Below, piece by piece: positions 29,044 through 32,555 of a DNA stretch of 64,000 bases (positions within the stretch are counted from its first letter, which is position 1; each line of letters starts with the position of its first letter). The DNA lies in contig NZ_CP009512.1 in assembly GCF_000970205.1 (NCBI RefSeq), forward strand, positions 1,426,001 to 1,490,000. The letters run 5' to 3'. Both the position numbers and the translations under genes were made by a program. The notes below the pieces were generated by a model. It was not told where the DNA came from. It did not search any database and saw only the letters and a list, made by a program, of their open reading frames with translations. This DNA is from Methanosarcina mazei S-6 (GTDB taxonomy: Archaea > Halobacteriota > Methanosarcinia > Methanosarcinales > Methanosarcinaceae).

Positions 29044-29115
29044 TACACCAGCCGGGATTCGAACCCGGGTTCGAGCGTTGGCAACGCCCGGTGATGACCG
29101 CTACACTACTGATGT
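29044..29115 (-). tRNA. tRNA-Gly (GCC), copy 1
   Basis: 72 bases on the minus strand; anticodon stem GGGCG/CGCUC, loop UUGCCAA, anticodon GCC. T arm CCGGG-UUCGAAU-CCCGG. The acceptor reads ACAUCAG/CUGGUGU, that is an A1-U72 first pair, which is unusual outside initiator tRNAs in archaea. CCA is not encoded. Last member of a Val-Phe-Gly cassette present twice. Confidence 0.93.
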
Positions 29116-29127
29116 TCCCTGTTTTTT

Positions 29128-29202
29128 TGGTGCCCAGACCCGGATTCGAACCGGGGACAACTGCCTCTTCAGGGCAGCGCTCTCCCACTGAGCTACCTGG
29201 GC
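29128..29202 (-). tRNA. tRNA-Phe (GAA), copy 1
   Basis: Minus strand; acceptor GCCCAGG/UCUGGGC (with one G-U pair), anticodon stem CUGCC/GGCAG, loop CUGAAGA, anticodon GAA. The terminal CCA is encoded (29128-29130), and T residues do not follow directly because tRNA-Gly starts 12 bases on. Confidence 0.95.
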
Positions 29203-29259
29203 AGGCAGATCTGGCAGTAACGTGATAAATGCAGGTTCACTGCCGGATTAATATTTATA

Positions 29260-29333
29260 TGGGCCCGCTGAGATTCGAACTCAGGACCTCCGCCATGTCA
29301 AGGCGACGTCATAACCGTCTAGACCACGAGCCC
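29260..29333 (-). tRNA. tRNA-Val (GAC), copy 1
   Basis: Minus strand, 74 bases; acceptor GGGCUCG/CGGGCCC, anticodon stem UCGCC/GGCGG, loop UUGACAU, anticodon GAC, T loop UUCGAAU. Spacer to tRNA-Phe is 57 bases. Confidence 0.95.
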
Positions 29334-29398
29334 TATGTGATGTCTTATACTCCCTATAACAAGATACATACTTGAAATAAGGATAACTAAAAAAGTTA

Positions 29399-29470
29399 TA
29401 CACCAGCCGGGATTCGAACCCGGGTTCGAGCGTTGGCAACGCCCGGTGATGACCGCTACACTACTGATGT
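29399..29470 (-). tRNA. tRNA-Gly (GCC), copy 2
   Basis: Identical to the copy at 29044-29115, including the A1-U72 acceptor pair. Distance between copies is 355 bp. Confidence 0.93.
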
Positions 29471-29481
29471 TCCCTGTTTTT

Positions 29482-29556
29482 TGGTGCCCAGACCCGGATT
29501 CGAACCGGGGACAACTGCCTCTTCAGGGCAGCGCTCTCCCACTGAGCTACCTGGGC
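29482..29556 (-). tRNA. tRNA-Phe (GAA), copy 2
   Basis: Same sequence as copy 1, CCA encoded. The distance between copies is 354 bp, so the Phe-Gly part of the cassette is duplicated nearly exactly. Confidence 0.95.
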
Positions 29557-29681
29557 AGGCAGATCTAATACTGCAGGTTCCTTTTTAAGAACATATCTTA
29601 AAAGAACTGGCAGTATTTTCGTTTTTCGCTTTCCAGAAAAAACTCTGGAAAGGTCCTGACTGTTTTTTCTAAATTCTTAAG

Positions 29682-29755
29682 TGGGCCCGCTGAGATTCGA
29701 ACTCAGGACCTCCGCCATGTCAAGGCGACGTCATAACCGTCTAGACCACGAGCCC
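29682..29755 (-). tRNA. tRNA-Val (GAC), copy 2
   Basis: Same sequence as copy 1. The gap to tRNA-Phe is 125 bases here against 57 in copy 1, so the spacer differs while the tRNA genes are identical. Confidence 0.95.
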
Positions 29756-30108
29756 TCTACAATGTGTATTGCTTCCGTTTCTCGCACGGAAGTGCAACAC
29801 CATAGTACGCATCATCATTTATATAAGTTTTGGGTGGTTCTGGCTTTTTTTGCTGGATAGAGTCCTGATAAAGCAAAATATCTTGCACTGTTTTGTAACC
29901 GATTTATCCATCGATGTGAAGAATGCTAAAAATTAATGCAAGAAAGCGTTGAAAATACAACTGTTTAATAAAGGTAAATGGAGAGCCGGGCAGAGAGCTA
30001 TTTTATGAAAAACTCAATAATAGGGACGGCTAATTATCTGTTTCTCCATATTCACCGGGGGAATTTCCAATATCTTTAAACGGAACAACCAGGCTAAAAT
30101 GTGGCAGC

Positions 30109-30912
30109 ATGAATGATAATAGGCCAGAAAGTGACAGGCCAAATATTGAAAGATTAAACATTGAAAGATCGGATACTTATAGATCAGACAGTGATAAATC
30201 ATACACTAAAAGACTGGATACTGATAAGCCTTACAGTATTATTACTGTCCCAATGGGTCATTCAAACTCTTACCTTATAGTTACAGGAGGTTAGGGAATT
30301 CTTGTGGATGCGGGACACCCTGGCAAAATCAAGAACCTCCAAATTGCTCTTGAAAGAAACCACATTAATTTTACCGATATAGTTCTGGTAGTCCTCACCC
30401 ACACTCATTATGATCATGTGAGTTGCCTTGCCGAAATAAAAGAAAAGAGCGGGGCAAAAATTCTTGTTCATGCAGAGGAAAAAGAATGCCTGGAAAAGGG
30501 TACAACTCCCTTTCCTGAGGGCACTTTATGGTTCTCAAGAATCATTTCCCGGATAGGAAACACCTTCATGTTATCAAAGTCAAGATACAAGCCTGTGAGT
30601 TCTGATATTGTTGTAAGTGATGAATATGATCTGGACAGGTATATCCCTCACGCAAAAATCATCTCAACTCCAGGCCATACTGCAGGCTCTATCAGTCTTG
30701 TTATTAAAAATGAGGTTGCATTCGTTGGTGATACTCTTTTTAATGTCATCCCAGGGACAATTTTCCCTCCTTTTGCAGATGATGTACCTAAACTTTTAAA
30801 GAGCTGGGAGGTATTGATTGATTCGGGGTGCAGGACATTTTATCCAGGTCATGGCAGACCCTTAACTTTCAAGAAATTAAAAGATTCCTATGGGAAAATG
30901 ATTAAAAAATGA
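30109..30912 (+). CDS. Metallo-beta-lactamase-fold hydrolase with in-frame TAG (possible pyrrolysine)
   Basis: The frame from ATG 30109 to TGA 30910-30912 is interrupted once, by TAG at 30292-30294 (codon 62); the same frame continues on both sides. Codon 62 falls in SNSYLIVTGG-X-GILVDAGHPG, inside the conserved N-terminal beta strands. Metal ligands are all downstream: THTHYDH at residues 97-103, TPGHTAGS, FVGDTLF and YPGHGRP. In Methanosarcina TAG can be read as pyrrolysine, so a 267-residue product is possible; a recent nonsense mutation (for example AAG to TAG) is the alternative. The first 40 residues are a degenerate Arg/Asp/Ser repeat. The substrate is unknown. Confidence 0.75.
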
Positions 30913-31238
30913 TAACTGGCACCCTTATTTATATTTGCATTTATGGCTTAATTAACCGGGCAGTGTATTAGAAATTAAAAAAACGAAGCCTTTTCTTCTT
31001 ACCCTTTAGATTCTTCTTATTCTGATTTTGTTCACCTTTTAATTCTGCTCATTCTTCTAATATAGTGCTTCGATTTCCTGAGTATCATCAGTTTTCCGAA
31101 TAAACACCAATTTTCCCATCTGGCTGAATACACTCCCATGTACCCTGCATCCAGTTAACCTGTCTCTAAATGAATGGTAAATAGATGGCATCATTCCATC
31201 TAAAATATGATGAATACGTTATCTGCGCTGAGGGTAAC

Positions 31239-32555
31239 ATGAACGGAGCATCTGCTAATATAGAAGAACACAGGACTATCCTGGAAATTCAGGCAAAAAT
31301 TGATGCCGGAGAAGCCGTAGTCTTTACAGCTGAAGAAATCAGCTCCAGGATCAGGGCAGGAGAAGAAATAGGGCTCGAAGATGTCGATGTTGTAACCACC
31401 GCCACCCGCGGAATCATGAGCGGAACTTATGCAGTTTTCTCATTCAAAGTCTCAGAACCTGACTCTTTTATAAAAGCTTCTGAAGTTTTTCTGAACGGTG
31501 TGCCGGCAGTTGTTGGGCCGTGCCCCAACGAAAGGCTCGGGGTTCTTGACATTATAGTACTCGGGACAGCTCACAGTGTATCAGATCCCCGTTATGGAGG
31601 TGGGCATCTTTTCCGGGACATGGTGGAAGGAAAAATCATTCGCGTTGACGTAACCACAAATGAAGGCAAGTGTTTCTCCGTAGAGACCTGCCTTTCTGAA
31701 ATCCCATTTGCACGTCTTTATGCAACCAGACATGCATTTAAAAATTACAGAGCGTTTGTAAATCCCGGTAAGGACCCTATCGACACTATTTTCCATGCCC
31801 TGCCTTTTGAAGGGGAGTTCAGGGAGATGACTTTCTGCGGTTGCGGAGAGTTGAACCCCATTGAAAACGTCCCCGGACTCGAGACAATAGGGATCGGGAC
31901 AAGAGTTCTGATCAACGGGGCTGAAGGTTTTGTCACAGGCCAGGGCACTCGCAGCGTTCCTGATAACCCCAACCTTACCGGTTTTGCGGATCTTCATGAT
32001 ATGGTCCCTGAGTACATGGGCGGCTTTGTAACTTCTGGAGGCCCTGAAATTATCAATACGTGGGCTGTCCCCATCCCTGTACTTTCCAGGAGTATGCTGG
32101 AAAATATCCTTAAACTGGACAGCCAGATCCCGCTCAAACTGGTGGACCTGGCGGGCAGGATTCCCCTTTGCGATATAACATACGGGGACGTCTGGGATAA
32201 CGCAGACCTGAGAGTAAAGTACGATCCAGGAAAATGTATTAACTGCAAGGTTTGCCCTGTGGCTGAGGCGTGTCCAATGGGCGCAGTAAGCAAAGGAGAA
32301 AACGGAGCTGAACATAACCCTGAACTCTGCTTTAACTGCGGGCTCTGTATTTCAAGGTGCAGAGGGGAAGCCTTCAGGGCAAACCTGGGTACTGTCAGAT
32401 GTGAAGCCGGAGGTTGTCTCAGAGATATCAAGGTAACTCTGCGCCAGTCTGACCGTGCAAGGGCAGTAAAAGCCGCACAGGAACTTAAAGAACAGCTTCT
32501 TACGGGAAGGTTCAGGCTCACAGAACCGGTTGAGAAAATAAGCTGGAGAGAATAA
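31239..32555 (+). CDS. DUF39 (COG1900) protein fused to a ferredoxin domain; likely sulphur-insertion enzyme of CoM synthesis
   Basis: 438 residues from ATG 31239, with a GAGGGTAAC ribosome-binding site; an upstream ATG (31185) adds residues outside the family. The DUF39 part (1-340) has VVTTATRGIMSGTYAVFSF, GPCPNERLGVLDI and TFCGCGELNP with conserved Cys. The C-terminus has two [4Fe-4S] motifs, CINCKVCPVAEACP and CFNCGLCISRC. COG1900 proteins with ferredoxin partners convert aldehydes to thiols in homocysteine synthesis. Next to cysteate synthase and ComDE, an equivalent step from sulphoacetaldehyde to coenzyme M is the natural guess. It converges with the comDE gene. Confidence 0.75.
   Translation: MNGASANIEEHRTILEIQAKIDAGEAVVFTAEEISSRIRAGEEIGLEDVDVVTTATRGIMSGTYAVFSFKVSEPDSFIKASEVFLNGVPAVVGPCPNERLGVLDIIVLGTAHSVSDPRYGGGHLFRDMVEGKIIRVDVTTNEGKCFSVETCLSEIPFARLYATRHAFKNYRAFVNPGKDPIDTIFHALPFEGEFREMTFCGCGELNPIENVPGLETIGIGTRVLINGAEGFVTGQGTRSVPDNPNLTGFADLHDMVPEYMGGFVTSGGPEIINTWAVPIPVLSRSMLENILKLDSQIPLKLVDLAGRIPLCDITYGDVWDNADLRVKYDPGKCINCKVCPVAEACPMGAVSKGENGAEHNPELCFNCGLCISRCRGEAFRANLGTVRCEAGGCLRDIKVTLRQSDRARAVKAAQELKEQLLTGRFRLTEPVEKISWRE

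Follow-up and report, generated by a model that had tools for sequence, protein, structure and literature searches.

Pyrrolysine-containing proteins and their in-frame TAG codons

In the methylamine methyltransferases MtmB, MtbB and MttB the in-frame TAG is conserved and the pyrrolysine it specifies lies in the active site (PMC8211752). In Thg1 of Methanosarcina acetivorans pyrrolysine has been physically observed at the amber codon, is confined to that species and is dispensable for activity (PMC2933860). An amber codon introduced into an M. acetivorans reporter is read through at 20-30%, and the PYLIS element is not essential for this (reviewed in PMC2933860); earlier computational work reported significant read-through similarity for 87 ORFs of M. 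mazei (PMC1242214).

Here we describe an MBL-fold metallo-hydrolase gene of M. mazei S-6, in a 64,000-nucleotide stretch of the genome (henceforth the window; Table 1), which is interrupted by one TAG. Like mtmB of the same genome, it is an otherwise open gene with one such codon, but its TAG is unique to the lineage and lies outside the active site, whereas that of the methyltransferases is conserved and places pyrrolysine in the active site. With Thg1 it shares an amber codon in one species only and homologues with sense codons; it differs in that pyrrolysine has been seen in the Thg1 protein, and in that its own family is dispensable and decaying.

Table 1. Features of the hydrolase locus and of related loci (positions are those of the window unless a contig label is given)
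Feature	Position	Strand	Remarks
MBL-fold metallo-hydrolase gene	30109..30912	+	267 codons and TGA (30910-30912), one TAG inside; from ORF, Pfam and orthologues
In-frame TAG	30292..30294	+	codon 62 counted from ATG 30109; turn between predicted strands 53-59 and 62-66
ATA aligned to the orthologues' ATG start	30070..30072	+	in frame with the gene; leader alignment
ATG	30109..30111	+	no other ATG, GTG or TTG left in frame 5' of the conserved domain; Shine-Dalgarno match of at most 3 bases
GGAGGT and GTG, possible restart	30286..30306	+	GGAGGT (30286-30291, Gly-Gly codons) 12 nt before in-frame GTG 30304-30306; 202-aa product
Conserved downstream neighbour	31185..32555	+	control for evolutionary rate
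tRNA set Gly(gcc)-Phe(gaa)-Val(gac)	29044-29755	-	twice in tandem
pylT	L032:5246-5317		ARAGORN
pylS	L032:5545-6909		open pylB, pylC and pylD frames next
Mrr_N-domain gene	L053:6150-7133	-	genome 1306150-1307133; open stretch with TAG as codon 47
RecG-like HATPase_c_4 domain gene	L053:5129-5875	-	TAA-interrupted
IS66-family transposase gene	L054:1723-3168	-	open stretch with TAG as codon 100
Orthologue of Methanosarcina sp. Ant1 (G012)	L003:1501-2190		single TAG at another codon

An otherwise intact hydrolase frame

The initial annotation had placed a TAG within 30286-30300 of a metallo-beta-lactamase-type frame and had described the remaining 205 codons as undamaged, with all metal ligands; reading of the ORF bears out both statements. 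The TAG is codon 62, and the 205 codons 3' of it are open up to the terminal TGA, with neither a second stop nor a frameshift among them. The metal ligands are complete (HTHYDH at 98-103, H190, D208 and H248), so that the HxHxDH motif and the distal His, Asp and His of the MBL-fold hydrolase superfamily are all present (H98, H100, D102, H103, H190, D208 and H248). The read-through protein matches the Pfam Lactamase_B profile (E=1.1e-23) from residue 50 to residue 248, a span with codon 62 inside it. Because orthologues from other species align across this codon without a stop, and because only one of the 16 Lactamase_B places in the genome bears a stop, namely the present one, the interrupted frame is not a product of chance.

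The fold of the hydrolase is predicted with a mean pLDDT of 81.9. Its fold and metal motifs resemble those of the GloB/YcbL-like hydrolases (PDB 7l0b and 2xf4), ST1585 (3adr) and TTHA1429 (2zo4), with Foldseek E-values down to 3.7e-15, but identity to these structures is only about 20%. Against the NCBIfam model of the B3 beta-lactamases it scores 71.1 bits, versus a cut-off of 240, and by that test the enzyme would not be a beta-lactamase. In the predicted fold residues 9-38 are disordered (pLDDT below 50), and residue 62 is the first of strand 62-66, reached by a two-residue turn after strand 53-59 and distant in sequence from the metal motifs. Codon 62 is thus modelled as part of a variable surface beta-turn off the active site that is tolerant of many residues. 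The flanks of the TAG had been called well conserved, which is true of the strands on either side but not of codon 62 itself, where Arg, Gln, Met and Ser occur.

Codon 62 among the orthologues and broken copies within the genus

A search of 31 Methanosarcina genomes recovered the orthologue in about a dozen, and the gene is missing from about half of the genus. In the eight orthologues compared codon 62 is CGA (G012), CAG (G044), CGG (G013), ATG (G040 and G041), AGG (G016 and G002) and TCC (in the more distant G045), and TAG in none of the eight; a pyrrolysine site conserved across the pyrrolysine-using species is thereby ruled out. Sense codons in sister genomes had been named in advance as evidence against pyrrolysine, and at the species level every intact sister species has one. 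The suggestion that a Lys codon, AAG, might be found here fared less well: it is absent from all orthologues found and is ruled out as precursor of the TAG. The CAG of the intact copy in Methanosarcina sp. 2.H.T.1A.6 (G044), on the other hand, is one C-to-T transition from TAG. The closest relative depends on the tree, the hydrolase copy grouping with G012 and the neighbouring gene with G044. A TAG at the same aligned place in UBA5 (G023) was rejected as a shared codon, being a frameshift product in a heavily broken copy. A scan of genome contigs gave matches from other species only, and when viral contigs were scanned for the exact pattern of a copy from another strain there was no match.

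Stops, frameshifts or a deletion have broken the orthologues of Ant1 (G012), G020, UBA5 (G023) and G024, some of these assemblies being draft or metagenome-derived. The Ant1 copy likewise has a single TAG, at a codon for which most relatives have TCA; its leader is frameshifted, with a start codon in another frame than the domain, so that the isolated TAG there accompanies another break. These four pseudogenes carry frameshifts or several lesions, whereas the window copy shows only the TAG and a probable loss of its start. In all eight genomes compared the orthologue stands beside the same downstream neighbour, presumably a DUF39 or homocysteine-biosynthesis-like gene.

Most orthologues have a GGAG 8 nt upstream of their start ATG. 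When the leader of the window copy is aligned with that of G044 (score 21, versus a maximum of 16 among 300 shuffles), an in-frame ATA stands opposite this ATG; the same alignment is seen with G013 and G024, more weakly than with G044, while G012 aligns elsewhere. A change from ATG to ATA, and with it loss of the ancestral start codon, is on this alignment probable rather than proven. Compared with intact orthologues the gene thus has frame-breaking lesions of the kind expected of a pseudogene, in the TAG and in the ATA opposite the orthologues' ATG.

Selection on the lineage

With a purpose-written codon model contrasting the branch of the window copy with the remaining branches, omega was 0.17 on the former against a background of 0.23, with an upper bound of about 0.28. 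Moving omega from the optimum to 0.25, 0.30 or 1.0 lowers lnL by 1.2, 2.6 or 22 units, respectively, so that the last value is rejected. The result is unchanged on an alternative tree, and the codons after the TAG alone give 0.185; the branch is so diverged (about 2 in neutral units) that the omega figure is rough. The long branch is general to this genome, being shared by the neighbouring gene (0.21 vs 0.26 substitutions per site). If past constraint was 0.17-0.23, the neutral share of the branch is at most roughly 6-13%. The relaxed selection expected of a pseudogene is therefore not seen (0.17 vs 0.23), although a very recent lesion would leave no signal. A long-dead pseudogene is ruled out by these values; given the purifying selection, either the TAG is a late event or the gene continues to be translated, and omega does not separate a nonsense mutation from maintained read-through.

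Capacity for pyrrolysine decoding

The genome encodes tRNA-Pyl (pylT), PylRS and open pylB, pylC and pylD frames, and the best matches of its PylRS are the solved pyrrolysyl-tRNA synthetases, the top entries being those of M. mazei. Its two copies of mtmB, each with one in-frame TAG, serve as positive controls, and in a 480-kb sample of the genome TAG terminates only 5 of 209 long ORFs. Of what is expected of a pyrrolysine-containing protein, the host machinery and the homology on both sides of codon 62 are found, and conservation of the TAG in orthologues of other pyrrolysine-using species is not. TAG is decodable in principle in this genome and, the machinery being intact, translation through codon 62 is possible.

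Explanations for the TAG

The initial annotation had left the choice between pyrrolysine and a nonsense mutation. Its first half stands insofar as the pyrrolysine machinery is complete and translation through the codon possible, but a dedicated pyrrolysine site is disfavoured by the comparison of species, which favours the second. We regard it as likely that a dispensable gene has acquired the TAG by late nonsense mutation at a tolerant site, with the leaky TAG decoding reported for Methanosarcina as a buffer, because the position is variable, CAG is a single step away, the sister species have sense codons, the gene has decayed repeatedly and its start is apparently lost. On this proposal the ancestral gene would have been an ordinary MBL-fold hydrolase, missing or lost in many Methanosarcina species, in which a late point mutation, most simply of a presumed CAG (Gln) to TAG, placed an amber codon in the variable surface turn. 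Most ribosomes would then stop after 61 residues, about 41 of them disordered; since the pyrrolysine system needs no cis element, some would probably insert pyrrolysine and complete the full-length protein. The amber codon would thus be a nonsense mutation that the cell tolerates while the gene is beginning to decay, with no dedicated role for pyrrolysine, and loss of the ancestral start codon may be part of the same decay.

The main rival to this late-mutation proposal is that the TAG has been maintained as a sense codon in a working hydrolase, pyrrolysine at residue 62 having been neutrally acquired and kept as in Thg1. The intact pylTSBCD set, the mtmB controls, the rarity of TAG as a terminator and the dispensable pyrrolysine of Thg1 (PMC2933860) all speak for it, and the intact frame and unraised omega of 0.17 also fit a gene translated through the TAG. 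A recent mutation, however, would give the identical frame and omega, and the lack of TAG in any orthologue, the variable and non-catalytic position and the repeated loss or breakage of the gene speak against maintenance. The apparent loss of the ancestral start counts in the same direction, with the caveat that it is read from a poorly conserved leader and that the ATG at 30109 could serve as start. On balance we consider maintenance unlikely. If codon 62 is read nonetheless, the hydrolase would join Thg1 as an incidental pyrrolysine protein, and would hint that the loss of genes is slowed by ambiguous decoding of TAG.

A single transition would also suffice for a TAG peculiar to one strain or for a sequencing error, and the comparison covers one genome of the species; but isolated substitution errors are rare in closed assemblies, and this one is a closed single contig of 4,142,816 bp with an estimated completeness of 99.97%, which makes such an origin improbable. 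We give even less credence to termination at the TAG followed by re-initiation at the GTG shortly downstream and a functional 202-aa product. The GGAGGT ahead of this GTG is the longest Shine-Dalgarno match among the candidate starts tested, but it simply spells two Gly codons, for which the orthologues have GGTGGT or GGCGGT, and the product would be without predicted strands 43-48 and 53-59 and most of 62-66, including the conserved Y55 and L56. The lesson that we draw is that, in an archaeon that uses pyrrolysine, an amber frame may look intact and yet mislead, where comparison across species points to a recent nonsense mutation at a tolerant site.

Interrupted genes elsewhere in the genome

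A base-rate scan of 480 kb for pairs of coding-like open stretches separated by a single stop, with a Pfam check that one gene spans the stop, recovered three cases with TAG, one with TAA and none with TGA. The excess of TAG is not significant, about one third being expected by mutation. The TAG cases are the hydrolase gene, an Mrr_N gene and an IS66 transposase gene, and show that it is nothing exceptional in this genome for an accessory gene to be broken by TAG. It may be asked whether Methanosarcina tolerates TAG nonsense mutations systematically via leaky pyrrolysine insertion, accessory genes such as the hydrolase and Mrr-like genes passing through a stage of low-level pyrrolysine protein; we hold this to be doubtful. 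The counts in the 480 kb are too few to tell such buffering from random mutation.

The Mrr_N gene has an intact orthologue in G008 (83% identical) and a TAG-free paralogue in the same genome (66% identical). The TAA-interrupted RecG-like HATPase_c_4 gene lies near it, and the two may belong to a defence or mobile region in decay. In the IS66-family transposase the single TAG falls between the DUF6444 and zinc-finger domains. Within the window, a duplicated tRNA set precedes the hydrolase gene (Table 1).
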